This document shows, piece after piece, positions 36,577 to 60,115 of a stretch of 64,000 bases of DNA. Source of the stretch: Daedaleopsis sinensis (lineage: Eukaryota; Basidiomycota; Agaricomycetes; Polyporales; Polyporaceae); the NCBI GenBank assembly GCA_033807695.1, contig CM066303.1:2976001-3040000 (forward strand), read 5' to 3'. Position numbers and translations under genes: made by a program. Under the pieces are notes generated by a model. It worked only from the letters and a program-made list of their open reading frames with translations, searched no databases and had not been told where the DNA came from. Every line of letters starts with the position of its first letter. Positions within the stretch are counted from its first letter, which is position 1.

Positions 36577-37149
36577 TTACATACTGATCCAGTGCCCTCA
36601 GTAAACATAGTATAGTATGGTGCACAGTAAAGTGTCACTAACGGCCACTCAGGTAGGCCAGTAAAGTTGAGTAAATACGTTTTATGGGTACATTGGTGGC
36701 TCAATTAAGTGTAATCCTGGTGCTCATGGGTGTTGTGTAATTAAGTGTGGTGCAACATTTACCTACTATATATTGCTGCACAGTAAATGTTATTCCTCCA
36801 ATTGTGGCATGTGGATGAGTGTTCCTGTTGGTCCTCTAGCAGTATGTCTGGCCTGTGAATGGCAGGTTCTTGTGCCATCTGCAGGCATGTCTATGGCAGC
36901 TTGGACCAGGGTTATATGATTTGTACACTGCAGTCTTGCCACTTGATAAAGGGGTGTCTGTGGAGACAGGGACTGATCTATAGGTGGTTTGCCCCATCAG
37001 GGCAGCTCAGCAGCAGCTTAGACAACAGGAATGCTGCTTACACATATAGCTGTTGCCACCTCATAAAGGGCTGTCTGTACAGCGAGGTGCAATGCTACAG
37101 GTGGCTTTCCACTGGATACTCGGCATTTCACCGGCAATCAAGCCTATGG
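36577..37149. other. AT-rich spacer with weak internal repeats
   Basis: Composition shifts to low GC with many CAGTAAA words. A degenerate ~110-bp direct repeat is visible: GCCACTTGATAAAGG at about 36938 and GCCACCTCATAAAGG at about 37053, each followed by GGTGTCTGT/GCTGTCTGT. No gene. Confidence 0.5.
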
Positions 37150-39185
37150 CTGGCTCGATTGCTGTGGAGTCATTCTACATCCAACAGCTACTAGTCCCCA
37201 GGTTTTCCTGTAAAACGTGCACTCGAAATAATTTTGGGTGGATCAATTAATCTACTCCAGTGGGAATGTCCGCCGCTCAATTGGCCCATTCCGATGTCGA
37301 GATCGGCAGTTGATTACTCTACTCTGCTACGTATCTTGGTAACCACGCTATGGGTGGGCGGCTCGATCGGCGTGAGTGATTGTATACAGGCTGGCTGTTA
37401 TTCCCCAGGTTTTCCTGTAAAACATTCACTCAGAATATTTTCGGGCCGATGAATTGATATACTCCGGTGGGAATGTCCGCCGCTCAATTGACTCATTCCG
37501 ATGTCGAGATCAGCACTTGATTACTCTACTTCACTACCTATCTTGCTAACCACGCTATGGGTGGGCGGCTCGATTGGCGTGAGTGATTGTATACAGGCTG
37601 GCTGTTATTCCCCAGGTTTTCCTGTAAAACATTCACTCAGAATATTTTCGGGCCGATGAATTGATCTACTCCAGTGGGAATGTCCGCCGCTCAATTGACT
37701 CATTCCGATGTCGAGATCGGCAGTTGATTACTCTACTCTGCTACGTATCTTGGTAACCACGCTATGGGTGGGCGGCTCGATCGGCGTGAGTGATTGTATA
37801 CAGGCTGGCTGTTATTCCCCAGGTTTTCCTGTAAAACATTCACTCAGAATATTTTCGGGCCGATGAATTGATCTACTCCAGTGGGAATGTCCGCCGCTCA
37901 ATTGACTCATTCCGATGTCGAGATCAGCACTTGATTACTCTACTTCACTACCTATCTTGCTAACCACGCTATGGGTGGGCGGCTCGATCGGCGTGGGAGA
38001 CTGTATACCTGCTGGCTGTGATTCCCCAGGTTTTCCTGTAAAACGTGCACTCGAAATAATTTTGGGTGGATCAATTAATCTACTCCAGTGGGAATGTCCG
38101 CCGCTCAATTGACTCATTCCGATGTCGAGATCAGCACTTGATTACTCTACTTCACTACCTATCTTGCTAACCACGCTATGGGTGGGCGGCTCGATCGGCG
38201 TGGGAGACTGTATACCTGCTGGCTGTGATTCCCCAGGTTTTCCTGTAAAACGTGCACTCGAAATAATTTTGGGTGGATCAATTAATCTACTCCAGTGGGA
38301 ATGTCCGCCGCTCAATTGACTCATTCCGATGTCGAGATCAGCACTTGATTACTCTACTTCACTACCTATCTTGCTAACCACGCTATGGGTGGGCGGCTCG
38401 ATCGGCGTGAGTGATTGTATACAGGCTGGCTGATCTACTTCACTACCTATCTTGCTAACCACGCTATGGGTGGGCGGCTCGATTGGCGTGAGTGATTGTA
38501 TACAGGCTGGCTGTTATTCCCCAGGTTTTCCTGTAAAACATTCACTCAGAATATTTTCGGGCCGATGAATTGATCTACTCCAGTGGGAATGTCCGCCGCT
38601 CAATTGACTCATTCCGATGTCGAGATCAGCACTTGATTACTCTACTTCACTACGTATCTTGGTAACCACGCTATGGGTGGGCGGCTCGATCGGCGTGAGT
38701 GATTGTATACAGGCTGGCTGTTATTCCCCAGGTTTTCCTGTAAAACATTCACTCAGAATATTTTCGGGCCGATGAATTGATCTACTCCAGTGGGAATGTC
38801 CGCCGCTCAATTGACTCATTCCGATGTCGAGATCAGCACTTGATTACTCTACTTCACTACCTATCTTGCTAACCACGCTATGGGTGGGCGGCTCGATCGG
38901 CGTGGGAGACTGTATACCTGCTGGCTGTTATTCCCCAGGTTTTCCTGTAAAACATACACTCGAAATAATTTTGGGTGGATCGATTAATCTACTCCAGTGG
39001 GAATGTCCGCAGCTCAATTGACTCATTCTGATGTCGAGATCAGCAGTTGATTAATCTACTCTGCTACGTATCTTGGTAACCACGCTATGGGTAGGCGGCT
39101 CGTTCAGTGTGGGTGATTGTCCACACACTGGCTACTATTTCCCAGGTTTTGTTGTGAAACACACTGAAAGGACACTCAATGCATC
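37150..39185. repeat. 207-bp tandem satellite array, about 10 units
   Basis: The anchor CCAGGTTTTCCTGTAAAAC recurs at 37198, 37405, 37612, 37819, 38026, 38233, 38521, 38728 and 38935, with a diverged unit at 39142. The spacing is exactly 207 bp except for one 288-bp step, which is explained by an extra 81-bp partial copy near 38432-38512. Two unit types exist. One has CATTCACTCAGAATATTTTCGGG after the anchor and the other CGTGCACTCGAAATAATTTTGGG. A second set of variants (GATCGGCAGTTG versus GATCAGCACTTG) alternates in the first four units, giving a 414-bp higher-order period. Because 207 is a multiple of three, the same ~65-codon open frame recurs; I regard it as non-coding. Confidence 0.95.
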
Positions 39186-39390
39186 CACTGACATGGGCAT
39201 ACCGTTTGCTTGATTGACCTACATTGATGGCGATATCAGGAGTTGATTACTGTAGTTTACTGAGAATGTAGGTCACTTGATTGAACGACTTCGGGTTCGA
39301 TTTCATCACCTGTTTATGAGCAAGGTATCAGGAACAATGATGTATTGCATTGTCCTCCGGAATAAGCCCTGCCGGCGAAATCAATATTGT

Positions 39391-39481
39391 CGGGCCCGTC
39401 CGAGCGGGCCCGGAACTAGCGGATGCCATCGGGCCCGCCGGTAAATGTTGGCGGGCCCGCCATTACATGTCAACGGGCCCG
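39391..39481. promoter_or_regulatory. cluster of five CGGGCCCG palindromes at the left edge of the island
   Basis: Exact copies start at 39391, 39405, 39430, 39452 and 39474, spaced 14-25 bp, in non-coding DNA. This is the densest group in the window and lies just after the satellite array. Clustered short repeats near an end resemble the subterminal transposase-binding repeats of plant Ac and Spm elements (established for those); a binding role here is inference. Confidence 0.5.
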
Positions 39482-39819
39482 ATGGCGCGCGCGATACTCA
39501 GACCCGCTCAATCATCTACTCGAAACGTTACAGGACAATTCCTGCGGACTTCAAGATCGTGCGCCGAGTCGTACATGATTTCAGACAATATAACAGACAC
39601 CTTCACCGAGGTCCGGCGATAGACTCTCCACCGCTCCCACCGCGTCCCTGGGCCAGCGCATTGGCCATCTGTTCGGCATGTTCTTCTTCTCTGGCAGCGT
39701 GCTCAGAGACCTGTCGCTGTTGATTGGAAGAAATGTGCCCAATAGACCGGCCGACCATCGCCATACGCGAAACATCTGTTACATGGATGGAAAGCGGGCG
39801 AACCTTTAGGTAGAGTCGG

Positions 39820-40497
39820 TCAGCGTATCAGCGCGGTGGGAGCAATGGCCGAAGTGCGCACCACCTCTGTAGTCGGATATGCCCACCAGCTGGGCGGGTT
39901 GAAATCTTTGGTAGCGTTGTCGGGCCACAGCCACCAGCATTCCCCTCTGAGCGAATTTTCAGAGTAATCGTCCTCGCCATCGCGGCAGTCATCAATCTCG
40001 CGATGATCAAGCTGGTCGATGTCCACCATGACTGCTAGGCCCTTCCAGTTGCACTTGACAAGCATGTATTCCACCGAAGCAGGGACAACTTCATATTGCC
40101 CAATGCCAATGGCTGCCGCCGCAGCGAGACCTATGCCGTCCACGGCTGTCCACTGAAACTCGCTTAAGTATTCAATAGCCCCGAATATGTCAGTGACACT
40201 CACTATTTCGCGGCCTAGCCCGTGATTCCACCGCTGACGTGTCAGCGGGGTTGGGTTCGCGGGGTACGATCGAATCGCTTGAGCCATTCGCCACCCCGTG
40301 ATTTTGAGCTCGAGGTCCATGGCATTGAGGACACGGTGACGCGGTGTACGGATCTCTGACATAGCGGGATGCAGAGACGGCGCGGTTGTGGTCTGTGGTG
40401 GAGGTTGGAGACAGAGCGGGGCAAAGAGACGCCGGTATGTCGGTTCGATTGTCCCACGCGATCGAGACGGGCACGAAACAAACGGCGGGCCCGTCAT
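39820..40497 (-). CDS. hypothetical protein in the KDZ island
   Basis: An uninterrupted frame of up to 225 codons; a better start may be the internal ATG at MSEIRTPRH, giving about 180 residues. It contains a globular-looking stretch (DIFGAIEYLSEFQWTAVDG, then VEYMLVKCNWKGLAVMVDI) and an acidic segment ending near a Trp-rich CWWLWPDN. No family is recognised. One CGGGCCCG copy lies at its upstream end (40486). It lies immediately downstream of the transposase on the same strand. Confidence 0.45.
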   Translation of the reverse strand: MTGPPFVSCPSRSRGTIEPTYRRLFAPLCLQPPPQTTTAPSLHPAMSEIRTPRHRVLNAMDLELKITGWRMAQAIRSYPANPTPLTRQRWNHGLGREIVSVTDIFGAIEYLSEFQWTAVDGIGLAAAAAIGIGQYEVVPASVEYMLVKCNWKGLAVMVDIDQLDHREIDDCRDGEDDYSENSLRGECWWLWPDNATKDFNPPSWWAYPTTEVVRTSAIAPTALIR

Positions 40498-40580
40498 GGG
40501 CGGCGGGCCCGACGTAATTAAGCGGTCCCGTCGGAGGGCCCGACTTCCAGCTTTGCGAGGCGTTATGATACTAAGACATT

Positions 40581-43500
40581 TTAAAACCTGATATCACTAG
40601 GAGCCTGTCGTGTAGCCTTGGCCGAGGCATAAATGCCTGCCGCATGGGTGTGAAGACCATCCCACATGGCCGCTTGGCGCGAGGCAAACGCGCGATGCCC
40701 AGGCCGTTCCTCTCCCTCCGTGCGCTGTTTCCACTGATCTCTCCACTGGGCCAGAGCGTTAAGGGAGCGAGCCATCTCCAGTGATACCAGGATGATCTCT
40801 TCCTCCCAACGAGTCTTGCGGGCGTGAGCCCGCAGCCAAACAACGCGGTACACTGTCCGAAGCTTCAGTCCCACGGTCGACTTCACGAAGAAATCTGTTG
40901 ACTCACTCTCATTCATCCAGACGCTACTCTCGGAATCTCCACCAACGTCCAAGCCCCAAAACCACGGCAAATGCTGGTTACGCACGCCGCGCATGCCTTG
41001 CTCTACCAGGGCGGTGTTGACCTTGAGATCCGACTTCTGCAGGACACGGTACTTCGTCAGCATTGCGGCCAGGCCCTCGCGATCTTCGGGCGCGTGGACG
41101 GAGTATAACACCTCGCTTGCTGCTCTGGCGCAGGTGTATATCCTGGCGTGGCCCAACACGCCGGCATCGGCCACGTGAACTTCGTCAAAGCTACGCAGCC
41201 TCTGACGATACGACGTGGCTTTCCGAACACCGTGACGGTATAGGAAAGACTTGTAACCAACGCCGACGCGTATGCTGTGGAGTGCATCGTTCATCTGACC
41301 GACCCGCAACTGTCTTTCGAGATCCACCAGGCCCCCCAGGCCGTGCTCTCGACAGAATAGGATCCCCAGGTTAGACGGCAGTGGGACACGAAGCCGCTCT
41401 GGAAGCGCAGCCCCCTCCGTGATGTCCATATCGTGAGCGGAGCCAGACGCTTCCGCCCCACTGGCAGCGGGCGCGCTTGACGTGTCTGGGGCGGGCCCGC
41501 CGCCCGCCTCCTCGGATTCAATCGAATCCCATTCGTCCCCTAACCCGGTCATGTCCGGGTCAAGCGACAACGCGGCGGCAATCGTGCGACGAGGAATGAA
41601 TGATGCAGCTTGCCGATTGAACTTCTGGATCTCCTTCAGAAGGGCGGCCCGCATGCGTTCAAGTGCCAGTTTGTCTGCGACAGAACTAGCCGGGCGAATT
41701 CCGCGCGCTTTGGCTGCGACACTCAGCCTTCAGATACATGCCGTTAGTCTCCAGATAATGGAGAAGAATATAAATTACCTTGACTCTTCTATTTTGATCC
41801 CTAGACCTAGCCACGCCGCCGCACCCTTGAGCTCCCCCCCGCGCGCATTTTCTCTCCGGGTCAGTTGGAGCTCGATTTCGGCCTTGGTCGGTACTGCCGA
41901 GGGTCAGACAAAGTACAACATAATACATGACGGTTGTACTCACTTTTCTGGGTCTGCATTTCGTAAACGTCCATAGCAGTGTAGTCAGTGGCGCGCTGCC
42001 GTGCTGCATCCTCGGAGATCTTAGTCCAGCGCCTGATTTCGGCGGGCTCGACATTGGTCCCCGCATCCGCCAAGGCTTGACGGGCGGGCCCGACATTGTC
42101 ACAAGCCGCCCGCCACTTCCGAGCCAGCGCTGGGGCTACACCGCTCTGTAAACACGTCTAGAAGGTTTATAGAAGCGGCTAGCCTACCTAGCTTGATCAG
42201 CTTCATCCAATTCGAGTCTTCCATGATGTCGTCGATGGTCTCTTGCCGATGTGCGGACGACATCCCGCGCGTGCTTCCCGAGATTTCATTCGTGTTGATC
42301 CAGAGTGACTCAAGAACATCGCCGTCTTGGACTCCTGCTCCGGGAATGAAGTTAGGTGAGAATCGGGGATAACACTCCTTCACATGGCCGTGGACGTGGA
42401 ACTGATCGATTCCACCGCTGATCTGCATTTGGGGGGGTTTACCGGCCAGCCCTGGGCTTCTCTGGAAGCGTTCGGCAAGGTGCACGTTGTAGTGGCACCA
42501 GACATCGTACAGCACTAGAAGGAGCAGGAGGGCATTGAGAAACACGGTGACCTGGCAAAGGCAATAGTCCATGTTCCGCTGCCTGTCAAACATAACCGGT
42601 CAGTACTACTGCAGCCTCACACCATATAATACGTCTGACTGACCCTTCTCCGCCTTGAAAGTCGACGGTTGCGTGCGGCACAAAGAATCCGTGGCGGGCG
42701 CATGCGGCGGCCCCGATGCCCGTCGCTTCGAGCGGGCCGCGTGCGGACCCGCCACCTAAGATGGCGCGATGGTCATTACAGACCAGTTTCTACACATCGT
42801 ACATCAGTAGTGCGACATCCGATGCGTTTACAAATACTTACCTGCCTGAGCTGTACCGCACTCTTGAGATGCATCTTGTACGGGGCATCTGTTACCATGA
42901 AACCGTGCCCGTCCGCGAAGCGGACATCGTCTTCTGGATTCTTCATGTGCTGGTGTTGTGCACTAAAATTGCCGTCGAGGATAACCGTGGCCATGTGCTT
43001 CCATCTATACGGTATGAATGTCAATATTGATGGATAATAAAAGTGGAGACCTACTTGTCGGGATCATCTTCCCAGCCATGAGGCATATTCAAGCCCGGCC
43101 TGGGGCAGGCAGGACAGGATGTCACGAGTCCCCCTGGGCCGACCTCCTCTCCCGGAGTGTAGCCCACGCCATTCTGCTTCCTTCGCTTGAGGTTACGCCA
43201 TTGACGCGACACACGCAGCAGGTCACGATATCGGTCCTGCGGGTGCGGATTCAAGTTGAGCTCCACGCGGGCAATACCAGATGCGCCCACTTACAGGTAT
43301 TCGATGAGGAAACGTGTCGTCAGAGACACGGCGAAGCTTGTTATAGTAGTTCATGGCGGCGGTATGGCATTCCTTGTGTGTGAGGAGAAAGTCGTCCAGC
43401 ACCCGTGTGGTGAACACTGTTCGCGGGCTTCGTGCGGTTGCGGGGTAAAATCCCATGCGGAGAAGCTGAATATCATGGCTTTCGGCCCCTGGACAGGCGC

Positions 43501-45455
43501 AAAAGACGAAGGGGAGCTCGTGCACGCCGGATATGTCCACTACAACCATCATCCGGGACCCCATGGCATCCACCCTCGACCCGGAGGTCTTCTTGGGGCG
43601 GAAAGACGGTTTGGCGCGCATCACGCCTTCGCCGAACAGGGGAAGAGCCGACGAGTCATCGTCGGCCACGACGTACGGGCAGTCCAGATATGCATCGTCG
43701 TCGTTTGGGTCGTCTTCAACTATGTCCTCCGTGTCGTCTCCGTCAGCGGCGGGCATCGAGAAGGGCGCCGACGGTAAAGACGCTCCCCGCGCCAAGGATT
43801 GCGACGAGTCCACGGGCGGGCGCGACTCGCTCCGCCCCGCCGGGCCCGCTCCTTCTTCTTCGATCGGGCTGTTTCTCCTAGAGTCCTGACGCTCTCCCTC
43901 CAACTCTTCCCGCCAGTCATCGAGGGCTTCCTCAGCTGGTCTCTTCTGCACCCGACTGACGTCTGCATGCGACGGAAGCCGTCCGTGATCACTCCCAGCG
44001 GAGCTCTGCGAAGACCCGGCGCTCCCAGAGGTTGCGCCTTGGGCTGAGCGAGGATGAGCAGGTTGACATAGAGTTGAGGAGCGAATCGCTTACGTGCACG
44101 TCGTCTCATCCCTTTCAACGCGTGATAAGTCCTCTTGAATTGGTCGACACCTGATACGCTGGACCCTGACGGGCTGCTTGGGGGCGGGGACGAAGGCGGC
44201 GCGGTCGCGCTTCTTTCCGAGCTGGCTTTGCGAGAAAAGAGATGCGGTGGTCGCGGCGTTGCTAAGGACCGGGATCAGCACCTCGGACTTTGCACAAATA
44301 ATTGTACACATACCAGAACCGCTAGCCAGAAATGGGGAGGAAGGGGGGGATGAGACGGAACTGCGCGGTCGAGGGAATTGGGACGGGCCCGCCTGCGGGC
44401 CCGCTTCGACGGGCCCGGCCCTCCCAGAGCTCGAGCTATGTGCTGAGCAAGGATGAGCAGGTTGACGTAGAGTTGAAGAGCGAATCCCTTACCTGCACGT
44501 TGTGTCATCCCTTTCACCGCAGGTGGAGTATTCTCAAATTTGTCATCGCCTGATATGCTGGACTCTGTTGGGCTGCTTGGGGGCGGGGACGAAGGCGGCG
44601 CGGTCGCGCTTCTTTCCGAGCTGGCTTCGCGAGAAAAGCGATGCGGTGGTCGCGGTGTCGCTGAAGATTGGGATCAGCACGTCGGACGTCGCACAAATGA
44701 TACCACTCGCACCGAAACGGCTAGGCGGAGATGGGGAGGAAGGGGGGGATGAGACAAAACTGCGCGGTCGAGGGAATTGAGACGGGTCTGCGCGCGCGCC
44801 CGCCTCTGCGGGCCCGGCTCTCTTGAAGCAGGTTTCCCCGCCGTGCCCGAGATGCACTTGAACATCGACCGTCCGAAGCCAGGCGGCAGTGTAGTGAATT
44901 CCATTCCAGACCTCTATGCGATGCAGAGGAGTATACCGGTGAGCTTCGGCTATGCACGCCCGACAGAAGGACCGGCGGCCTAGGCATTCAAGGCAGCGCC
45001 ACAGGGCAGGTCCTCCGCAAACACACATGGCGACATCACCACCCCCCTCCTGCTCATAAAGCACGCCGAGATATGTATCTCTGTGCTCAGCCTTCCAAAG
45101 CCGTTGGTAGTCATTGGGAGTCTGTGCAGCAGAGATCAGCCGAACGACGCAGCGGGGAAGAGGCGGGCCCGCCCGCGACAATGAAATCGTACAATCTTAC
45201 CTTGCGGGGTTTCTCAAGCGGCAGCGAGTCCGCATTGAAAGCATATCCATCTTGCACGTCTCCAAAGACCACCATTGGCATCCCACCAGGCGTCCGGACT
45301 TGAGTAGGCGGGCGGGGTGAGGCGGCCGGGCGATCATTGGCGACAGTCGTCCTGGCCTTGACGTACACCCACTTCTGGCCGCGGCCGCTCTTTCTTGGGG
45401 CAATTTCTTTCTCTGGGTGCGGGTCATAACGCTCCGTGCGCAGACGACGTCTCAT
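40581..45455 (-). CDS. KDZ-family transposase with cysteine-cluster (CxC) region
   Basis: KDZ transposases are DDE/RNase H-fold enzymes of large cut-and-paste elements. Exon 1 starts MRRRLRTERYDPHPEK at 45455; an intron at 45122-45200 joins LEKPRK to TPNDYQRLW. The CxC region reads CVCGGPALWRCLECLGRRSF and then PLHRIEVWNG ... LGHGGETC. The KDZ core follows: VVVDISGVHELPFVFCACPG, QLLRMGFYPATARSP, LDDFLLTHKEC, and after an intron DRYRDLLRVSRQWRNLKRRK with TSCPACPRPG. VILDGNF gives the first Asp. CNDHRAIL and GIGAAACARHGFFVPHA follow, then YDVWCHY (second Asp), HVHGHVKECYPRFSPNFIPG and GDVLESLW (Glu). The C-terminal helical region (LGILFCREHGLGGLVDLERQ) ends at 40581. All three catalytic acids are present and no lesion was seen. 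A 0.4-kb tandem duplication (44016-44815) repeats one exon plus intron. Several introns carry the CGGGCCCG palindrome. Confidence 0.88.
44016..44815. repeat. tandem duplication of ~398 bp within the transposase gene
   Basis: Unit 1 (about 44016-44413) and unit 2 (about 44414-44812) match closely: GGGCTGCTTGGGGGCGGGG, then TTTCCGAGCTGGCTT, then GGAGGAAGGGGGG and ACTGCGCGGTCGAGGGAATT, in the same order and spacing. Each unit holds an exon encoding ATTASLF-S-QLGKKRDRAAFVP-type sequence, a splice donor and flanking intron, so the protein may contain the exon twice or alternatively. Palindrome copies sit at the unit junctions. Confidence 0.85.
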
Positions 45456-45491
45456 GGATGTTCAGTGAGGAGTATGCGAGAGTACAGGTTC

Positions 45492-46814
45492 TCAGATAGA
45501 AGGGAATGAATGTGGGTATGTGTTGGTGCTCATCCATGGGACACTAGCTATGTTGTGATTAGCATGGGCGGCCTCGCTCATGAACCATGAATAACAAATC
45601 CGGTCCCCTGGGACCTTGGCCACGCCGTGGTGAACCAAACGACCTCCAATCAACACCACAGTACCTGGTAGATACGCCACCTGCATCCCCAGATTGCGAA
45701 GAACAATGGTAGCCTTATCGTACTGTCCCAATGTAACCAGCAGATCAAACCACGTTGCATCTCCCGTGGTATCACGATGAAACGGTGTCTCGCGGTTGCT
45801 GATGATTTGCACATGATCGAACACTGCAGGCCAACTGGCGAGGCTTCGCGCGACATGCGGATCTTGAGCCATCTCCTCGAGGCACTGTCGGCCCGCTTGG
45901 TGTTGTCGCGGATGGGCGATTCGGAGCACAGCGCTCAGCAGGGCCCCCGAATCTCGCATTGCATTGCACCAATGTTGCGCCTCCGGCGATCGCAACGTGA
46001 CGCTAGGTTTTGGTGGAAATTCGGAACTCTGATGTGCAGTCTGAGACACAAAGATTGTCAGAAGGACATGAAGGAGCACGACGTACCTTGTGACCAACTG
46101 CATACCCAGCGGGAGAGGCCAGCCAGCTCCCAGCCGGCCAGTCGTGCCCTGTGCTATAGAAGCTGGGTGCCTCCCGCCACCGTAGGGCGGGATCTTCGAC
46201 TGCGGGAGAAATCGACATACGAGACTTGAGATATGCTGTACATCGGAGAATGTCGTCCTGTCGAAACTTGTTATCAGCGGAGAAATGTCTCACAGAGTGC
46301 GGTGTTATGTACCTGCCGACTTTTCCTTAACAAAAGAGGCAGGGCCCAGGTGAGGATGTGCCCAGAAGAGTCGATGACAATCGCCGGGCGGGTGAGAAGG
46401 GGGGGCGTGTTCTGGATAACATTCTCGACTCCGCAAAAAGGCTCGAATATTTCGAGCAGCTCCCGCTCTTTCAAGGGATTGAGTCCGTGTTGCCGTTTCG
46501 TCATGGAAGCTCGAAGGTCCTCTGCGTCCCAGCTCTGCGGCACTAGCATAGCAAATCAGCATCACAAGCCGGCTGCAAACAAATAGTCCCTTGCCTCGAA
46601 ACGTCCAGGCGGCCGCGAGGATTTTCGCAGCGCGCACGAGGTCTTTTTGTAGATCGCGCGAGATCAGGCGGGCCCGCGCCGAGCGGGCGCGCCATTCCCG
46701 CGCGATAGGATGACGACCGTCGGCAGCACTGAGAGCCTCTTGAAAAAGCTCGTCGAGTGCATCGGCTACCAGGTCCTGAAAGGCGAGGGCGTTCTTCAAG
46801 GGCATGGATGACAT
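45492..46814 (-). CDS. TET/JBP-family 2-oxoglutarate/Fe(II) dioxygenase
   Basis: TET/JBP enzymes oxidise methylated bases (5-methylcytosine in TETs, thymine in JBPs) in nuclear DNA. The gene is spliced from at least four exons starting MSSMPLKNALAF. The N-terminal part has RPAIVIDSSGHILTWALP, matching the conserved segment before the core. The core has GALLSAVLRIAHP, IISNRETPFHRDTTG (HxD iron ligands), FDLLVTLGQYD, YLPGTVVLIGGRLVHHGV (distal His) and GDRICYSWFM (2-oxoglutarate Arg). All ligands are present. The gene lies 37 bp downstream-to-upstream from the transposase start on the same strand. It probably shares a divergent promoter region with the HMG-like gene. No zinc (CXXC) domain is visible. 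Substrate cannot be read from sequence; mushroom homologues act on 5-methylcytosine. Confidence 0.85.
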
Positions 46815-47389
46815 TGAAGGTCAGGGCAGGGTATGTGCTGGCATGCACGAGGCACGTGGCAGGGCAAAAATTGTTCGGCGCTACAGTGGTGATCGGGAAT
46901 CGGACACGTTGATCGTCTGTCGTTAGCAGCTCCCATCGCCCAACCCGCCAGCTGATCGCCTCGTTGGGCTATCCGCAGGCTATCCCTAATCCCGCGCTCC
47001 TAGATAACGCCTCCCGGAAACAAATGCGCATCTTGATCGAGAATAGCGCGTCCGCTGAGAGAGACCTCCCACGGCATCCCACTGGTGCAATCGATTGTGG
47101 GAGAAGACCAATGGGTACGTGCATGAGGACTGAATGCATCTGCGTCACGGGTAGAATGACGACAGGATGTACGTTCTCCGTCATTCGGGCAAGGATGCGG
47201 GCCCGCCCGGTGTCCGGGCGGGCTCGCTGGCTGGTGATCGAGTCCCCGCGGGCCCAGCATATTTAAGCAGGCTATACGAGCGACTTTAAGTCCTCATCCC
47301 TGGCATAGACTGCACGGGCTCTCTCTCTGGTTAAACTGCGAATTATCCTTCCATCCTGACCGCTATCGCCTCTCATACTATTGCCCTCC
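46815..47389. promoter_or_regulatory. divergent intergenic region between TET/JBP and HMG-like genes
   Basis: 575 bp between two starts on opposite strands. It contains one exact CGGGCCCG (47198) and a near copy (CGGGCCCA, 47250). Just before the plus-strand gene it has CATATTTAAGCAGG, a possible TATA-like element about 130 bp upstream of the ATG at 47390. Confidence 0.4.
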
Positions 47390-50300
47390 ATGCCCGCTCC
47401 TCCCGACACCACGTTCGCGAAGCACGAGATCGAACAGCTCGTGAAGGCGAAAGACGACTGGCCCACCAAGTCACGCCTCGAAAAGGATGGTGTCAAAGAG
47501 GCCTTAGTCACGGCCTTCCTCGAAGGTCGTCAGCATGACGTGGACGACTTCTATGCCCGCGGGTTTCTCAAAGTGGTGAGTAGCTACAGATGTAGCCGCT
47601 GTCCTGTTACTGACGTGATTGCTTGTTCGACAGAGAATCACTACCTGGTTTTCGAACAACACCCCCGCGTCCGAGACCCGCCTGCCGCGATCGATTAAGT
47701 CGTCGTGGACCGGACGCGAAGTCTTCTGGGAGATTGAGGAGGAGGCGATCGATGAGGGCGTGGAAGCCATGCTGGCTGCCAACAAGCGCATGGTGTACAT
47801 CGCTGCGCTCAACAAGGTGCGGGCGGAGATGTGGAAGGAGCTTTCAGAGGAGCAGCAGGACACGTACACGGACTGGGCGGAGCAGTGGACGCAGGAGGGT
47901 CCCAAGGAGGAGTATCGCGTCCAGTAAATTTGCTGTTGTATATGCCGCGCGCCCGCAATTGATATCGCATCATTAGAATCGCTGCCAAACGCATGCCCGG
48001 ATGGGCCCGAGCGGCCTCCGCACTATACTGGAAGCAGGGGGGTGTTTTCAGTCTCCAGCTTCTGTATTGGCTGGATGACAACGGCAAGATCAACTTTTCG
48101 CGGTGAGTCGCGAACACAAGCGGGCCCGCCGCCCGATCGCGGGCCCGCCTGCTTATCCGTGCGGAGCAGATGACTGATGTCCGACATAGATTCGACACCA
48201 GCGAGCTCTTTGGAAAAGAATTTCCCAAGTTTGTGGAGCGGTTCCCGGATTGGAAGAGCAACACCGTCGACGACCTCGGCAAATTTGCTGAAGACTGGCT
48301 GCGGCCTAAGGAGGAGGGGGACGAGGCGGGCCCGCGCGCTGATGCACCTCCCCCGCCCGAGAAAGCGCCGGTTGAACTAGAGTTCTACGAGGACGGCTTT
48401 CCTATCCTCCCCGACGAGAAACCCGACTTGGAGGCGAAGCATAGACTCTCCCGCCGCAAAGAAATGCTCCGTGTCTACCTGAACGCTAATTATGGTGAGC
48501 AGGACTCCTTGCTCATGAATGACTAGTACGAGCTGACGCGCGGTCAGCTCTTGCCTGCGGCATCCCCGGGAGGCCGGTGCCTTGGGGGACCGTGATGGAC
48601 GACCGAGGACATTTCTTTGCCCCGGGGACGTTGCCCGCCGACATTACCATCAAGCAACCAAAGCACATGGTCGGCGCGGACATCCACGCCCTTTGGAAGC
48701 ACATCCATGACATACAGGACCTCGGAGACGACACTCGATTCCGTTTTACCGGCGTCGCCGAGGGCAAGACTCTGATTCCCGCACGCTACAAGCCCGTGGA
48801 ACAGGCTCCGTCGGGTCAGGCCGCAGGCAGCAAGAAGGGCCGGAAGGCGGGTCCCAAGCTTCGTGCTCCCCCCGGATTTCGCAAGGGCGCCCGCCGGGGC
48901 GCAGACGGCGCCGACGAGGCCCAGCCCGCTCCTTCCAAAGACAAGGGCAAAGGTCGCGCTCGCGGTCGCTCTGACCATCGAAGTGGGAAGGGGAAGAGTC
49001 GTGCCAAATCGGAGTCGACAAGTGCGCAATCGACTTCCGGTGGAGGGTCCTCAGAGGAGGAGATCGATATGAACTTGGGCTCGGATGCCGACAGTAGCAC
49101 CGACGAGCGCAACGAGGCGGGCCCGTCGCAAGCGGTCGCGCCCAGGGCGGGCCCGCGGCCTCGTCCTCTCATAACCGGAGGCGCCATCCCGCCTTCCGCT
49201 GCCTTCGTTGTCGCAGCTGGATTCAAGCCGCCCAGCTGGGTTGGGCGCGACGATCGCATTGTGCCGTACCTCTGGGCTCTTAGTGGCGAAAACGAGTATA
49301 GAGATCTTATTGCATCGTGGGTCCACATGGTGAGTGTACTGTACATGGGATGACAAGTGGCGATGCTGACTCCAGATGCTCAAATAGCTGCGACGCCGTC
49401 TTAACTTCGGGCCTGACGCACCGGCGGCCTGGGTGTCCTGGACGTCGAATCAAGTCTGGCTTCCGGACGTTATTCACCTCAAGAGGGCCCACTGGGAGAA
49501 GATGCTGGACTGGATCACTCGCTCGGCCCCGATTGAGACTTCTACCGCGGAGGAAATTCAGATATGGCTCTTGGTGACGGGAATGGTCTTGCGCGACATC
49601 AGCATCGTGAACAGCATCAACCCTGACGAGCCCGAGGAGCCCGTCATTCACGACGGTCCTGAGTACTTTCGCAACAGCACCGCGAGCTTCTCCGACATGA
49701 CGAAAATTATCCTCCCCACCTGTGCATCCGCATATCATGCCCTGGCCGAGGCGGCCGCGAACCACGGCGCGCCCGCAAGTGTCGCCGCCGCGGCCCCGCC
49801 CATTACCCGATCACGGGCTGTCGCCCACGTCGCCCCCGCCTCCACTTCCCAGGAACATGCAAGGGCTCTCCCTGAGGTGGCGGAACTCGCTAAGAGCTCG
49901 GGCGGCGCGAACAACCCAACGTCAACGTCGAAGAACATCGTGAAAGCCAAGCGGGGAGGCCCCCCGGGCTTGCGAGTGCTGACGGCGGGACGCTCGGAGA
50001 GAGGCGATTCCAGTGAGAAGGACGTCGGGATGAAGGGAGGCGACGCGACTGGGAGCGAGGGCGCATCGACGACCCCCTCAGGCAAATCCATTCCATATGT
50101 TCTCATCACTTCCCACCCGCCGGGCAGAGTATCCTCTGCCAGAGGATCATCCAACTCGGCTCGAGCCCCCGAAGAACAGGGGACCGCGTCGGGTAGCGGA
50201 CAGGAGGCCGCCGGCATCGCGTCGGGTAGCGGTCAAGACCCCGCCGGCGGGGCCGGCAGGAGCGGGCAAGACGAAGCGGGCGGGCCCGCCGCCGGGCCCG

Positions 50301-50440
50301 CCAGGCAGACCCGCAGCGCAGTCAACCTCGCCGTGCCGGAACCGGTGGACACAACGGTCGCCCTTCCGGAAGAGCCCCCAGCTGCCCCCCGCCGATCTAC
50401 CAGGGCTAAGAAGACAACTGACCGAGTTATCGGAGGGTAG
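47390..50440 (+). CDS. HMG-like, Lys/Arg/Ser-rich accessory protein of the KDZ island
   Basis: The start is MPAPPDTTFAKHEIEQLVKA. Introns with GTGAGT donors separate a helical HMG-like domain (MVYIAALNKVRAEMWKEL, then EEQQDTYTDWAEQW, then EGPKEEY), which resembles the HMG-box third helix and its Trp/Tyr pattern. A short WARAASALYWKQGGVFSLQL block follows. The middle region includes WGTVMDDRGHFFAPGT, and then a basic linker (GRKAGPKLRAPPGFRKGARR, KDKGKGRARGRS). A second globular block has WVGRDDRIVPYLWALSGENE and WEKMLDWITRSAP. The C-terminal ~250 residues are disordered and contain KAKRGGPPGLRV, near-repeats of SGSGQ, and end RRSTRAKK. No enzymatic motif is present. A DNA-bending or chromatin role is inferred from the HMG-like part. 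It is convergent with the next gene, with 159 bp between their stops. Confidence 0.65.
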
Positions 50441-50599
50441 ACTGACTGCACTGCGCCCCAAATCGTTCATGTGCTCACTGTTTGTTCGCGAGGCGCCTCG
50501 CGTTTGTAATATATTTGTATGCTTGAATGACTCTGAGATCACAGACAGGAACGCTGCTCAGGATGTATTGCAAACAAAAAGAGGGTGCAGCTAACATTA

Positions 50600-53511
50600 T
50601 TAATCTGTGTCCATTGGCACAGCTACCTGCGATGCCTGTTCGCCCGTGCCCTCCTCACCATCCCCAGATAGCTCTCCTTCCTCGACATCTTCGACCTCGC
50701 CATTAGTAGAGTACACCTCCTCGTCTTGGACTGGCGATTGCACCAGGTCAGAGGCATCCGACTGGACTACGGCGTTCTCTTCTGTAGTAGTCGGCTCTTC
50801 GCCCACCGGGGTAGCGGCGAGGGTGTCGCGAGACTCACTAGGGGCGGGCTGTATGTTGTCTTCGAAGGCGGCTCCAGTGGGCGACGACATGCTGCCTGTC
50901 GAGCCGGTGTCGGGGACATCATGACCTTGGTGCTGAGAGGCCGCTGCAGGCTGGTCATTGGTGTCGGACCCGGTGGGATCAGGCGCGATGACCGCGAGCG
51001 GGGCCGCCGGCGCAGTGTCGGGCACGACATGAGTGGCGGGCCCGCCGGGTACCGGGCACTGCTCGCGCAGGCCCTCTTCCCCGGGCGGCCTCAACATGCT
51101 CGTTGGGCGGGTCGGGGAAGGCCCAGCCGAGCTGACACGAACCCCCGGAGGGCCCCCTCGTTTCGCCTTGATGACGTTACGACTGGGGGACACTTGAACG
51201 CTAGCCTGCGTAGGAGCGGGAACGGACACAGGGGCGGACTCCGTCGGTACAGCCGGAGGCGGGAGCGCTGGATTGGGAGCTTGGAGTGAAGCGAGAGACG
51301 CGCTCACTAAGGCTGATGCTGGGGCAGCAGTCTCGACTACCTGCGCCTTCAGAGCCTCAATCATGCGCCCCTGGTCCTGCACGACAGTCTGCAAATCCCG
51401 GACCTCGGCGCGGAGCTCGTTGATGAGATGCTCACATGTGGCGTGGACGATGCCGATGAGCTTGGCATTCGCGGACTCCAACACTGCGTCGGCGACCATC
51501 GAAGTAGCTCTTTTCATGGAGATGTTGTCGACCGCCCTGTCTTCAAAGTCCACGGACGAGGCTGATAAAACATTAGCCCATTGCCAAGCTCCAGGAATGG
51601 TGGCGACTTACTCTGCTGATCGTGGGCGGCTGCGCCGTCCCGCCGTTCAGCCAATATACCTTGAACTGTTGGAATAGTATGCCAAGGTCCTGCATAGTCA
51701 GTATGATTCAACGAAATGGCGGAGGGGTCACTTACTATTCTCAGGCGGGACAGTGACGGCCTGGCGGGCGCGCGTGCCAGCGGCGGGCCCGACGGCGGGC
51801 CCGGCGGCGGGCGGGGCGGGCATCTCGACGAAACCGACTTCCTCCATCTCGGCGTCCACATCGGAAAGCGTGGAAGGGGCGGCCCTCGACAAGCTGCGCG
51901 TGCTGCGAGAGGACACCGCGTCTCTTTTCGCGCGACTGCTCCGCTTGGGCTGAGGCTTGACAAGCAGAGGCGGGGCCGCGCTAGGGCGGGGCCGCTTGTG
52001 CTCCGATGCAGCGGGTTCGTTCTCCTCGTCGACCTCGTCCTGCTCAAGATGAGCGAGGCGGCGTTTGCTCCTGCGGGGGGTCGTAGGGGCACTGTTGCTG
52101 GCCTGTGCCTTCGCCTTGCCCTTGCGTGACTTGATGACGGGCATGTTCTCCTCCGACAGCTCATCTTGTTCGTCCCCCTCCTCCTCGTCCTCATTGTCGC
52201 CGTCCTCCTCGTGCTCATCCTCGATGTCGTCGTCCTCATCGTCCTGGGCCTCGTCCTCCTCGTCCCCATCATCCTCCTCAACTAACTCGTCTTCGTCGAG
52301 CACCACCTCTTCGCGTTTGGTTCTCCTTCGCTTGCGGGGCCCAGCACTGTCGTCTTCTTCTCTGATGGGGGCGGGGGTTACGGCCTTCGAAACCACAGCG
52401 ACGGCTTTGGAGAACCATTTGGGGGGGTGGAGTTCGTCCTTGTCAACCTGCGAGAATTTGGCAGGGATGCGTTGGCCTGGATGCGCCTGGTCGACGTTCG
52501 CTGTGGTCATCCAATCCCAGAGGATCCACTTGCTCTGTTCACGCGACCAATCACCTTGCGGACGAAGGGTGCACTTCTTCTGGCGACCCGAGCAATTGAG
52601 GCAGGAAACACCGTGCACAAAGTTGACTAGGCAGACGTTGTGACTTTTGCTGCAAAGCTCGCATTTGACGGGCTGCCGCAACGTTAGCACAGGAAGTAGA
52701 CCATCGCGGATGTACTCACCATAGCAAGCCACTCGTCGGGCACCTGCTTGACACGACCGTTGAAATCCCTTGTGCCCACTGGAGTCACTGCTTGGGCTGT
52801 TGTGCGTAACTTCGGTTTGGAGCCCCGTTTAGGGCGCGCAGTGGAGGACGCGGGTGATGTGGGCTCCTTTTTAATCGAGGGAGCGGGAGTTTGAGCCGCC
52901 GTGTTGGCACCCCGGGCGGACGCGCTGGATCGACGGGACGGGACCGGCTGCGAAGTCGGGCCCGTCCGTTTTGCGGGCGGGGGCGGCTTGCGACGCTGCT
53001 CCTTCGAGAGGGATTGAGACTGGGCGCTGTGGAGTGGGGGGGAGCTGGAATCTTGGGGAATGAGGGAGGAGATGCGTACTGGAGCGGTCGAGGGGGCTGT
53101 TTCTTGTCGTTGACGTGAATGAGCCTCAACCAGATGCGACTGAGACTCACCGTGGACCGTCCACCATCCTCCTTCTACCGGCCGAAATATATGTTGATCG
53201 TCGCTCCAGAAATTTGCCTCGTAGTCGGGAAATTGGGCGGATGCGGGGTCGAGGCGCGAGATATCAAGCCCTTCGCCGGTGCCAGCGACGCGATTATGCT
53301 CCCGGAGCCAGGCAACGACGAAGGGGGGGACATACGCCGCGTGTGTGACGCGCTCGGCGAGGCACGCCATCTCGTCCAGGTCGCGCATGAAGCGATCGAG
53401 CCAAGCGGGATAGTCGGCCCTGTCGTATGGCGGACGCGCCAACCAGGCGGTCTGGCAGCGAGCGGCGAGCGCGATCAGGCTAATTTGAGCGGCCTCGGAG
53501 TTGACTTCCAT
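50600..53511 (-). CDS. Zn2Cys6-cluster, acidic and coiled-coil accessory protein of the KDZ island
   Basis: The start MEVNSEAAQISLIALAARC is at 53511. A helical, Trp-containing N-terminal domain (ARPPYDRADYPAWLDRFMRD) is followed by a long Ser/Pro/Arg-rich linker. After an intron near 52720 comes a cysteine cluster with spacing C-x2-C-x6-C-x9-C-x2-C-x6-C (CELC ... CLNC ... KKC), exactly the fungal Zn2Cys6 pattern. Then a basic PRKRRRTKREE, a long Asp/Glu run (~70 residues), an RSKRR region, short introns around 51550-51735, a coiled-coil-like segment (LINELRAEVRDLQTVVQDQG) and a Pro/Ala-rich tail. The tail contains KAKRGGPPGVRV and ends in GEGELSGDGEEGT-like acidic sequence. The coiled coil suggests dimerisation, as in classical Zn2Cys6 regulators. 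No middle homology region was noticed. Confidence 0.65.
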
Positions 53512-53822
53512 GGCGGTGTGGCGTAAGCGGTGCGGAGTAGAAAAGCGAGAAGTAAGTGCGAGGTTAAGACAGCTGAGAGAAGTGCGAAGGCAGTAAAAAG
53601 CGGCGGCTCGGTGGTAGAGAGCAAGAAGCAAGCGTGGAATACGGACCGGTGTTTGAGCGTGGGAAACGGACATCTGTGGCGGCTTCAACTTCGACGCGCT
53701 TGAAAGACACTGCAGTGTTCTTCCTCACAGAGAAACAGTAAGTGCTCGGGGCTTCCAGACGAGTTCCCAGATGTACGTGACTGGCTAATCCGACCTTATC
53801 ACCGCAGGGAGCCGTGGGCAAA
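53512..53822. promoter_or_regulatory. divergent intergenic region of the two right-hand accessory genes
   Basis: About 310 bp between starts on opposite strands, so it should carry both promoters. No exact CGGGCCCG copy is present here, unlike the other divergent region. Confidence 0.35.
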
Positions 53823-55536
53823 ATGGGACCCAGCAAGAGCAAAAACAGCAGACGTAGAAAGGTATATAATCACATATTTGAACGCAATGTTGGTCTGAAA
53901 TACATCCTACAGTTCTCAGAGCTAGACTCGGAATGCGACAGTACACCGGAGCCTCTGCATGAGGAAGCCGCTTCGACCGGACCTGCAGGCGGACCCGCCT
54001 TCGATTCCGATCAGAAGAAGGGGGATCTCGACGACGCTAGGTCCGGAGAAGGCCGTCGAACACGAGCACGCACTCGGGCGGACGCTGAGAGCTCCAAGAA
54101 ATCTACCGACGTGAGTTTATATCTCGGTTTGGCCCGAGTATAGAGTTTACTCGTTATGGCGGGGAGGAGGAGGAGAGCTAATGCGTTTCTGGGACCAGAT
54201 ACTGCCACCTCGCAAGCCCATCGGTCGCGCCTTGCCTGATGAGCCCCCGGTGCGCATCAAATCTGCGTACGCGACTTCAAATCGAATTGGAGTGCGTTCA
54301 ACTGGCCTCGGGGATCCTCAGCGCCCTTCCGAGGGCCGCCAGCCTACCCGTGTCGGACCCGCCGTAGGCGGGCCCGCGCCGTCCGACTCTCCCGCTGGCG
54401 AGCCCCGGCGCCTTCCTACCGGCGTTGGGATTACCGCCCGTATCGGTCGTTACGACAGCAGCGCCACTGTTCACGACCCAAGACGGGTGCATATGTTTTC
54501 AGCCTCAGGCGGACGTCTCCATGATCCCCCCCTCAGGGTTACTGAGGCCCATCCCGACGGGGGTCGGCCTGTTCGTGTCGGTCCCGCTGCTGATGCACCC
54601 GTCCGTGTCGAGCTCCCCACTCAAATGGCAGCGGGCGCAGGCGGCACCCTTCCCACCCGGGTCCAGCCCCTCCGTATCACCCCGGAGCGGGTCGCCGCAT
54701 TGCAGGCGGGTCGGCCTGTTCGTGTCGGGCCCGCTGCTGATGCACCCGTCCGTGTCGAGCTCCCCACTCAAATGGCAGCGGGCGCAGGCGGCACCCTTCC
54801 CACCCGGGTCCAGCCCCTCCGTATCACCCCGGAGCGGGTCGCCGCATTGCAGGCGGGTCGGCCTGTTCGTGCCGGGCCCGTTGCTGATGCACCCGTCCGC
54901 GTCGAGCTCCCCGCCCGGCTGGCAGCGAGCGGAGACGGAACCCTTCCCACAGTGGTCCAGCCCCTTCGTATTACTCCCGAACACGTCGCCGAATTCTTGC
55001 CTCCGCTATCCCGCGCCCCAATCGAAGAAGCTCCGTTGGGACTTCCCGACTTTACGTCTGCGCCCCCGCCCGGCGGGCCCGCCTTGCACAGGCCCTCCCC
55101 ACCGCACCAGGCGGGTAACAACCCCACGCCCGCCCTTCTACCCACCCGCGTCGAGCCGCTTCGGTTAGCCTCCACTGATCACAGTGTTCCGACAGGAGCG
55201 ACTTCAAGTAAGCCTGTCCGGGTTACCCTCGCGGAGATGGAGCGGACCCGCAGGACAACCTCCGGTGAGGAGCGGGCCCGTCTGCAGCCCGCCGGATCCG
55301 TCGTCTCTGGCGCAGAGACAATACGACAAGACGCGATATTTGCCGTGGAAAGGCGAGTGTTTCTCGGACAGGACCAGAGGGCTTGGGAGCAAGCTGCGGT
55401 GTATGCGAGAGAGCTTGAATCCGCTCTGGGTGTTTTCGATGGGCTGTCATGGGTGGACTACAACGAGGCTCTGTTGAATACTGCTGATGGACTTCCTGAT
55501 ACGTACAAACTGTTCTCTCCAGAAGCCGATAAATAA
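53823..55536 (+). CDS. Pro/Val/Arg-rich protein with 49-residue repeats
   Basis: A basic start, MGPSKSKNSRRRK, is followed by a possible intron (GTATAT at 53862), a short acidic/basic exon and an intron ending near 54180. The main exon begins about MRFWDQILPPRKPIG. It contains three tandem 49-residue units built on GRPVRVGPAADAPVRVELP and LPTRVQPLRITPERVAALQ. The C-terminal ~100 residues are not repetitive (QDAIFAVERRVFLGQDQRAW, then LGVFDGLSWVDYNEALLNTA) and look globular. No known domain. Upstream repeats of the same RV-GP theme suggest that the unit expanded from the island's GC-rich palindromic sequence; several CGGGCCCG copies are in-frame GP codons. Function unknown. Confidence 0.6.
54562..55005. 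repeat. 147-bp in-frame tandem repeat, three units
   Basis: Units start near 54562, 54709 and 54856. CGGCCTGTTCGTG occurs at 147-bp spacing. Units 1 and 2 are almost identical, differing mainly where unit 1 has TCGGTCCCG and unit 2 has TCGGGCCCG; unit 3 is more diverged. Near-identity of units 1 and 2 implies a recent duplication. Confidence 0.92.
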
Positions 55537-55605
55537 GATCTATAGATGACCCTTACTTCTATAATCAGCTGCAGATTTCGTTAGTGACCTACAATGATTA
55601 CTTTG

Positions 55606-56065
55606 TACCTCCAAAACAGTACCTCCAAAACAGTAGGCCTTTTGAAGTGTCATACAGACCTAGAGCTCACTAGGCAGTCAGTGTCACTCATTCATTACAG
55701 CTTCATAGTAAACACAAGTGTATGGGGGTACAGTAAATATTATCATGAATGTGAACATCTGTGCCATAATCCGCCGCAGATTTCGTCAGTGACCTACAAT
55801 GATTACTCCGTAGACATTATCAGCCAGCTACAATGATTATGTTGTACCTCCAAAACAGTAGGCCTTTTGAAGTGTCATACAGACCTAGAGCTCACTAGGC
55901 AGTCAGTGTCACTCATTCATTACAGCTTCATAGTACAGACGAGTGTATGGAGGTACAGTAAATATCATCATGAATGTGAACGTCTGTGCCATAATCCGCC
56001 GCAGATTTCGTCAGTGACCTACAATGATTACTTCGTAGATATTGTCAGCTAGCTACAATGATTAA
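55606..56065. repeat. two direct copies of a ~225-bp unit
   Basis: ACCTCCAAAACAGTAGGCC occurs at about 55621 and 55846. The following ~200 bp match closely (AAGTGTCATACAGACCTAG, CATTCATTACAGCTTCATAG, CGCCGCAGATTTCGTCAGTG). It lies just outside the KDZ island and is AT-rich, unlike the island. Confidence 0.9.
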
Positions 56066-57013
56066 TCAGTTCTTCTAAAATGCTTCACTGCTGGCTCACA
56101 GTCATAAAGTCATATAATGATGGCATGAGCGATATTATAGCATTTAGAAGTACATTGATGATATGTGTATTGTGATCCCAACATGTGTGCTTAATTATGT
56201 CAGTCAAGTGCCCACGCACCTTAATCAATTAGCCCTGCCAGCTAGGAAGATGGGACAGGCAATTAACCCACATCTGTGGGTATACTGCACAAGTTACTAA
56301 ACTTTACTGGAGTACTATAGTGGGAGTTAGTGAGTCTTTACTGTGTAGTTAAGTATACCAGTTCTACTGAGCTTTGTGACTGATCATGCACAACAGCCCC
56401 CATCGCCGGCTAGAGATCTAACACTGCATCTGATCACGACAGGATACCTCTCGCCTAATCATCCTTCAAGACTTTCGACGTAACCCTGTTGCCCTACGTC
56501 CAACCTTTATATCTGGTTAAAAACTTTAGCTGTCGTTCATACCATGAATATCATCCTCTCTACAGATCGTAACGTAAATAGGTGTGCTGACTATGAAGGT
56601 GTCCATGTATCTCACGGTCCAGTTGGGACACATAAGTCAGTTCCTACTTCATGCGAACTCCTTCAAAGGGCAAGCACCCATCAAACTTGTCCGTATTAGC
56701 CACTCGCACAATGCGATGACGGCGAAGGTGTCAAATTTGTGCAACACGACGTGCAGTGCTATCCAACGGTATCGATGAACCGCGCACCGCTGTCACATCT
56801 GTACCCCCCCGTTATCACTCTCCACACCATAAACTAATAAGCACCACTTACCTCAATATGTTTACCAAGAACAAGCAGACTCCTACACCATGCCGGCGTA
56901 AATCTCCCGTTCTGCTCGTCATATCCACCGGCCAGCTAATGACTCATCATATCTTTAGCACAACGTCCGTGTCCAAGAAATCTGTGACTCACCTATTCTT
57001 CAACCACCAAGTA
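56066..57013. other. AT-rich intergenic DNA
   Basis: No convincing gene. The plus-strand frame that crosses 56756-57346 is mostly antisense to the acidic-tail gene below. Confidence 0.4.
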
Positions 57014-58072: not shown

Positions 58073-58329
58073 GGGAGAGAGTTGCCGTCTCCCTAAGAAG
58101 CCCTGTGAATTCAAAATATTAGTAGTTCGGGTGGCAGTCACAAACTTTATCATTCAGCCTGTGCCATCAATAGTTGCCTTACTCTACAAGTCGCTCTCAA
58201 ACGGACCTGACACCGATACAACAGTGGCAAATAAGAATATGAGACTTCGCAGAAAATGCTGCATGGTGGCAGAGGTGGCTCGGTCAGTTTACACGGCGTG
58301 ACAAGTTCAAGTTGTCTGCCACATGCTCG
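58073..58329. other. intergenic
   Basis: Upstream region of the acidic-tail gene. Nothing else seen. Confidence 0.3.
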
Positions 58330-58810
58330 GTGGGTCACACCGGTTCAAGTCGATTCGGATATACACGGATTTGAACTGGACGAATCGAACCTGAAATGAA
58401 ACTTGCACTTGCAAGGGTCGACCTTAACCTCCGACTCAACTTACAAATAAATATCAGAATGGAGTTTGGCTCCCGAACAGCACCAACAAGTATGACGGGA
58501 TCCCGCGGACAAAAACATTCGACTTCAGACTCGGATTTGGGGCATTTATTTGGGTTGAGCGTGGAAGTATTGAGGTTGAACGCGAGTAAGTTTATATTGA
58601 AGTGGAATGCTTTGGTTCGACTGGACAAAATTCAAGTTCAACTTCGGAATTAACTTTCAGTCGACGTGTGTTCATGTTCAAGTTCAAGGTCAAGTTCAAG
58701 TTGAACTTGATGTGGAGCAGCCCGACGGCGTCTGTTGAAGCGGACCGAGAGACCGACTCCGACTCGGAGGTGACCGACTCCTCTCGAGTCTCGAGTCTCC
58801 TGAGTCCTGC
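58330..58810 (+). repeat. GTTCAA-rich repeat family, copy A
   Basis: It begins near CACCGGTTCAAGTCGATTCG. It contains TCCCGCGGACAAAAACATTC, GGTTGAACGCGAGTAAG, TTCGACTGGACAAAATTC, a (GTTCAA)n-like run at about 58665-58710, and ends in CGGACCGAGAGACCGACTCC. The same blocks recur in copies B and C. Confidence 0.85.
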
Positions 58811-59689: not shown

Positions 59690-60115
59690 CAGTCGCCTGA
59701 GGTTGCCTCCAAGGAGTTGGTCTCTCGGTCCGCTTCAACAGACACCGCCGGGCTGCTCCGCATGAAGTTCAACTTAAACTTGAACTTGAACCTGAACTTG
59801 AACACACAGCGACTGAAAGTTAATTCCGAAGTTGAACTTGAATTTTGTCCAGTCGAACCAAAGCATTCCACTTCAATATAAACTTACTCACATTCAACCT
59901 CAATACTTCCACGCTCAACCCACATAAAAGCCACCAATTTGAAGTCGAATGATTTTGTCCGCGAGATCCCGTCATAGACAAGCGAACAGATCCCTACAGT
60001 CCACCGATTTGCTCCTATAGGACTTGAGATATCCCAGTGCAAATTTCACTCAAAGTTCGATTCGTCCAGTTCAAATCTGTGCACATACATATCGACTTGA
60101 ACCGGGCTGACCGAA
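59690..60115 (-). repeat. GTTCAA-rich repeat family, copy B (inverted)
   Basis: It is the reverse complement of copy A in the same block order, starting GGTCTCTCGGTCCGCTTCAA and ending CGACTTGAACCGGGCTGACC. It includes its own TTGAAC run at 59769-59805. Copies B and C abut head to head at about 60115. Confidence 0.85.

Follow-up and report, generated by a model that had tools for sequence, protein, structure and literature searches.

Arabidopsis VANDAL transposons are the closest described system for what we report here. In PMC5735166 and PMC10398659, VANDAL families are dense in short words, a related family has a different word, and the transposon-encoded VANC protein travels with its word, whose turnover proceeds partly by tandem repeats. 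VANC21 binds YAGTATTAY, VANC6 targets bear other motifs, and hypomethylation is confined to each target set. A second close system is the TET-bearing Kyakuja transposons of Agaricomycotina, for which PMC12730594 describes KDZ, Tet_JBP, a 7-bp target duplication and CA..TG termini. In this study, we analysed one window, the whole 64,000-nucleotide stretch of Daedaleopsis sinensis contig CM066303.1 (C4:2976001-3040000; genome of 24 contigs, 51.6 Mb), in which a preliminary description had noticed an island of the 8-bp word CGGGCCCG. The results showed that this island makes up the body of element A, a Kyakuja-type (KDZ) transposon bearing TET, which has all four of the Kyakuja features listed above; the preliminary description was right to equate the interval with a block of KDZ and TET genes. 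Like VANDAL transposons, element A combines a dense short word, a different word in related elements and an element-encoded protein that accompanies it.

The window contains 33 exact copies of CGGGCCCG, all within 39391-55280 (last copy 55273-55280), and our recount reproduced both this number and all 19 positions quoted previously. Whereas about one chance copy or fewer had been estimated previously, 100 dinucleotide shuffles of the window gave a mean of 1.15 (maximum 5), and Markov models of order 1, 2 and 3 predicted 0.88, 0.99 and 2.6 copies in 39001-55500. In this interval (GC 0.60), CGGGCCCG was the top over-represented 8-mer under all three orders, with an excess of ~13- to 38-fold. Merging copies <100 bp apart left 22 separate sites in element A. 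Genome-wide there were 2,115 copies (one every 24 kb), compared with 1,643 of the reversed control word, and the density in element A, 33 per 19.8 kb, was ~41-fold above that of the genome. The word is thus absent elsewhere in the window, as had been stated, but not elsewhere in the genome. CGGGCCCG is a palindrome of the form CGG-N2-CCG. This arrangement occurred 51 times in element A and 59 times in element B, a second element on contig C3, the corresponding mean over spacings of 15-199 being 12 in A and 11 in B, and N2 was GC in 33 (A) and 34 (B) of these pairs.

The position of the copies relative to coding sequence was then compared with element B, which has 34 copies between 4769710 and 4784896. 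In element A, 24 of the 33 copies lie within open reading frames (ORFs) conserved in B, in codon phases 13/8/3, and 9 lie outside them. Because all three phases and non-coding DNA are represented, a coding or amino-acid origin of the word was rejected, in agreement with the preliminary view that codon use is no explanation. The A-B alignment (67.7% identity) spanned 31 of A's 33 sites, and the exact word stood at the aligned B position for 13/31 of them versus 75/442 other GC-only 8-mers. In well-aligned stretches (>=65% identity, few gaps), 8/9 words of A were kept in B versus 22/137 control 8-mers (Fisher p 1e-5), and 8/14 words of B were kept in A versus 23/109 (p 0.007). Conserved copies often had diverged flanks; the remaining sites were gained or lost, some via short tandem duplication.

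Tet_JBP was found at 22 places in the genome, KDZ adjoining all of them (one as a fragment). In elements other than A and its copy on contig C11, which gave the borders, sites were placed by their distance from the KDZ, TET and cluster genes. Over the 3.4 kb surrounding each TET exon, four elements had 7, 7, 5 and 3 copies of CGGGCCCG (expected 0.11-0.14); the C5 locus had one and the other 17 had zero. Contrary to what had been supposed, the word is therefore not family-wide, since 18/22 Tet_JBP loci carry at most one copy in this interval, and four of these carry another word, AARYCCGG. Close pairs of CGGGCCCG (gap 0-30) numbered 49 genome-wide (reversed pattern, 24). At four KDZ-TET loci we found 36 of them: 11 in A, 11 in its copy on contig C11, 13 in B and 1 in the C2 element. 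The expected coincidence of word peaks with KDZ-TET loci accordingly held at these four, but most KDZ-TET loci are without an array. The other 13 pairs comprised 7 scattered ones and 6 in a C2 tandem array. This array (C2:410723-462807, period ~9.3 kb) has one close CGGGCCCG pair per unit; Rfam detected no ribosomal RNA in two 3-kb pieces of it, and a ribosomal DNA label, taken from the period, is unproven. The C2 element (L013, L040, L061) had 10 copies of CGGGCCCG in 9.4 kb, one of the three counted pieces having been chosen for holding a pair. CCCGACCC was similarly enriched there, giving direct CGG-N2-CGG repeats, and the word of this element is possibly in transition.

AARYCCGG was first spotted in the 3.4-kb TET fragments, and a previously unused 8 kb of the C5 element served as the check. 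Per 3.4 kb, it occurred 13, 13, 12 and 8 times at the C7, C8, C3:3.18M and C5 loci (expected ~0.4), and 0 or 1 time at the 14 remaining TET loci. In the fresh 8 kb of the C5 element, AAGTCCGG occurred 16 times versus 0.31 expected, with one copy each in A, B and the 44.5 kb flanking A in the window; 8 of the 16 lie in one 18-bp tandem array, and 6 sites were left after 100-bp merging. Same-strand close pairs of AARYCCGG numbered 55 genome-wide (reversed control, 14), 45 of them at the four loci (C3 15, C5 13, C8 9, C7 8), and only 3 opposite-strand pairs were found in the genome. Only 3 word positions coincided between L011 (13 positions) and L018 (12 positions), 2 of them with identical letters, and no position of L014 coincided with either; identity in the three-way alignment is 53-62%, and some homologous sites may have been missed. 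With so few common positions at like density, the density of the word in L011 and L018 is not simply inherited. One further locus with AARYCCGG pairs, C7:3505574-3509520, adjoins a KDZ gene 64-68% identical to that of A and a match to ORF 39820-40593. The genome searches gave neither a Tet_JBP nor a cysteine-cluster match there, and this locus is perhaps a TET-less relative that has retained AARYCCGG.

We then asked which element gene accompanies the words. ORF 51728-52828 (-) of element A bears a six-cysteine cluster, CX2CX6CX9CX2CX6C. Searching the 51.6 Mb with the cysteine-cluster sequence of A gave 8 matches, namely A, its C11 copy, B, C2, C7, C8, C3:3.19M and C5, and the C5 version gave the same eight plus one match at E 0.08. 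The gene was thus present at 8/8 word-array loci versus 0/14 other TET loci; within these searches the latter had no cysteine-cluster gene, and they had at most one copy of either word. Counted by lineage, 6 with and 4 without the gene and word were obtained. Three other parts of the element do not track the words: KDZ; the HMG-like gene, found at 19 word-bearing and wordless places including 11/14 wordless loci; and ORF 39820-40593, whose 31 matches include wordless loci. The six cysteines were invariant in 7 aligned copies (the eighth, on C11, is 100% identical to A), and other residues of the cluster set the CGGGCCCG group apart from the AARYCCGG one.

Short fragments were scored by their best 8-mer (log10 p, copies <30 bp apart merged), for which ordinary controls ranged from -3.1 to -6.7. 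L011, L014 and L018 (-8.6 each) and two L054 stretches (-13.4 and -7.4) exceeded the controls, the L054 scores still counting part of the 18-bp tandem array. L013 (-5.8), L015 (-6.4) and L017 (-4.9) were not distinct from them. Candidate words of their own for TET lineages L019, L023, L025, L028 and L031 were dropped, the best 8-mers (-4.1 to -6.6) falling within controls. Among control and flank stretches, outlying scores were obtained at 37401 (207-bp repeats, -18.2), 54401 (225-bp repeats, -8.1), 57801 (apparent inverted repeat, -9.3) and in the tandem repeats at B's left end (-22.8). One C8-locus stretch was also outlying (-10.6, word TATTACAA), and GAGCTC was raised in fragments of the C8 element, with 21 copies in 18 kb.

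Based on the observed arrays, their conservation and turnover at the level of the word, the second word and the co-occurrence with the cysteine-cluster gene, we give about even chances to the proposal that CGGGCCCG is the binding site of the transposon's own cysteine-cluster protein and is used for anti-silencing. The cysteine-cluster protein (51728-53724, -) would read CGGGCCCG, and with the element body filled with this word it would coat copies of its own family while hardly binding elsewhere in the genome. The bound protein would mark the element for the adjacent TET dioxygenase and/or activate transcription of the element, and host cytosine methylation would be removed or oxidised over the element but not across the genome as a whole. 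An array across coding and non-coding DNA suggests that the whole element is marked rather than a promoter, and given that the element also encodes a TET enzyme, sequence-addressed removal or oxidation of 5-methylcytosine would be the most economical purpose. Sister lineages would have switched word and cluster sequence together. That each cluster protein reads its own element's word and targets TET to its own family, with separate codes arising within one genome as word and reader co-evolve, is an extension that we offer tentatively. Because the words track the cysteine-cluster gene and not KDZ or TET, a recognition site is better supported by these comparisons than a substrate of TET chemistry, both of which the preliminary description had entertained for CGGGCCCG. 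The recognition site survives in altered form, as lineage-specific words coupled to one element gene in place of one family-wide word.

Several observations weigh against anti-silencing by the element's own reader. When 3.4-kb stretches were taken singly and near copies merged, CGGGCCCG of A and B often failed to exceed the best control 8-mers (L015 -6.4 and L017 -4.9, controls down to -6.7); the case for CGGGCCCG rests on whole elements. CpG depletion was absent in most of A and B and mild in the AARYCCGG elements, unlike uniform protection. Oxidised methylcytosine has been reported over several classes of transposon in related fungi, and the same paper speculates that these TETs have no target specificity (PMC12730594, section 4.2). 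The co-occurrence tests covered only some of the element's genes. Moreover, similarity of TET and KDZ places the eight word loci in one group (a grouping made without a tree), so that the 8-versus-14 contrast does not amount to 22 independent tests, and word and gene may represent a single co-gain. Pfam contained no family for the cysteine-cluster protein, and a PDB profile search with the cluster domain gave no relevant solved structure. The AlphaFold model was weak, with a mean predicted local distance difference test score (pLDDT) of 73.6 and mostly 53-68 in the cluster part, and the cluster resembles the Gal4 type by its cysteine spacing only.

The strongest alternative, though in our view an unlikely one, is that the same cysteine-cluster protein activates the element's transcription or organises its chromatin, with the words as its sites and no link to TET or methylation. 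It fits the co-occurrence of word and cysteine-cluster gene equally, and the 14 loci with TET and KDZ but no word array indicate that TET needs no words. However, TET is present at 8/8 word-bearing loci, and promoter sites would not usually be spread over the whole body with 24/33 copies in conserved ORFs, a pattern more in keeping with marking of the entire element. It is very improbable that the words are binding sites for the transposase or a transposition complex. Many DNA transposons do have short repeated transposase sites, among them subterminal repeats, but the first 2.8 kb and last 1.1 kb of A are word-free and have their own tandem repeats (207 bp on the left, 225 bp on the right), and KDZ is present at 22/22 Tet_JBP loci while word arrays are present at 8/22. 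Less probable still is a mutational by-product, whether of GC-biased drift, of a preference for certain codons or amino acids, or of tandem duplication on a local scale. Some copies do lie in short tandem arrays (44384-44417 and 51784-51803 in A; C3:4771770 and C3:4783012 in B; C5:924520-924653), 21/24 ORF copies encode Gly-Pro, and the reversed control word itself forms 24 close pairs. Against this stand the use of all three phases and non-coding DNA, the 22 separate sites left after merging, the excess over Markov expectation at orders 1 to 3, the often diverged flanks of conserved copies, and sister elements that have another word at mostly non-homologous positions. Finally, the words would be least probable of all as tolerated or still unpurged targets of a host silencing factor: their close pairs do mark these transposons above the rest of the genome, but selection should remove such sites, which are instead conserved and regained, and the link between the words and a gene of the element suggests that the element does the reading.

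The proposed reader and its word were compared with other DNA-binding systems. Gal4-type Zn2Cys6 clusters have the spacing CX2CX6CX5-12CX2CX6-8C and bind CGG triplet half-sites. The six-cysteine spacing of element A fits this pattern, and CGGGCCCG is a CGG-triplet palindrome; unlike Gal4-type proteins, the cluster matched neither the family profile nor a solved member, and the triplets have N2 spacing. Maize Spm/En encodes TnpA, which binds 12-bp subterminal sites and has a role in demethylation. Element A likewise has repeated sites and a predicted DNA-binding protein of its own, but the TnpA sites are subterminal and the termini of A are word-free. Compared with VANDAL/VANC as described in PMC5735166 and PMC10398659, the transposase is KDZ instead of Mutator-like, the candidate reader is a six-cysteine cluster without a Pfam family, and a TET enzyme lies within the same element. 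VANC21 sites lie in non-coding repeats, whereas 24/33 words of A lie in conserved ORFs and its terminal tandem repeats are word-free. VANC binding and hypomethylation were determined experimentally, and their counterparts here are inferred. The Kyakuja account differs in that the parts of PMC12730594 that were covered mention no dispersed word, and 'zinc' and 'subterminal' are absent from its main text. Among the literature matches listed, there was no description of a dispersed word in KDZ-TET elements.

The structure of element A is summarised in the table below. Its inverted C11 copy was 99.6% identical to A over 3.4 kb around the TET exon and bears another target duplication, AGTGGTC. A 7-bp duplication, CAACAGC at 37182/56391, was rejected because its left copy falls within the element. 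The terminal inverted repeat scan of A found no common word of >=8, the scan being anchored at 56390, beyond the true end at 56378. Pfam searches identified KDZ (PF18758, E 5e-27), CxC2 (PF18803, E 5e-23) and, above the cut-off, Tet_JBP (PF12851, E 9e-15) inside element A. In a large protein database, the TET query gave 11 matches and the cysteine-cluster protein had no homologue at E 1e-3. The 8 kb of the C5 element gave no match to ORF 50603-51607 or ORF 54115-55533.

Table. Features of element A and its insertion site, in window coordinates
Feature	Position	Strand	Remarks
Element A, TET-bearing Kyakuja-type (KDZ) transposon, termini CA..TG	36590..56378 (19,789 bp)		Borders set by the inverted C11 copy
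Left 7-bp target-site duplication ACTGATC	36583..36589		
Right 7-bp target-site duplication ACTGATC	56379..56385		
Left subterminal tandem repeats, ~207-bp unit, word-free	37190..39165 (borders approximate)		
33 dispersed CGGGCCCG copies	39391..55280		
Conserved ORF of unknown function, also at wordless KDZ-TET loci	39820..40593	-	
Probable KDZ transposase gene, several exons (structure inferred)	40584..44089	-	KDZ domain ORF 42099-42599; CxC2 ORF 43223-44089
TET/JBP dioxygenase exon, catalytic residues HRD...HH...R present	45492..46289	-	
Probable multi-ORF gene; first ORF with weak HMG-box similarity, below cut-off	47619..50440	+	
Cysteine-cluster gene, two overlapping ORFs; candidate word reader	51728..53724	-	
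Six-cysteine cluster CX2CX6CX9CX2CX6C	52571..52663	-	
Repetitive ORF, function unknown; conserved in element B; five word copies	54115..55536	+	

Outside element A, the window also contained 11 copies of AACTTGAA/TTCAAGTT at 58306-60294, in two arms resembling an inverted repeat. A dispersed repeat with CCGGGCTT..GGGCCGGGTACCCGGGCTT was found at C3:4369861, C7:2907752, C7:4343575 and C11:1248594. Pieces of a ribonucleotide reductase large subunit and a small-subunit ORF stand upstream of a Helitron (Helitron_like_N, PIF1), at 6284-8090 (-), 23850-24527 (-) and 26318-31790 (+).

Non-targeted action is one current suggestion for why fungal transposons carry TET (PMC12730594, section 4.2). With a word code tied to one element gene, targeting of TET can be tested directly. 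If the proposal is true, self-addressed anti-silencing would have arisen independently in plants and fungi from unrelated parts, and the cysteine-cluster protein would be a fungal VANC counterpart that uses an active demethylase. The elements would then also be a natural source of matched words and DNA-binding domains that epigenome editing could use.

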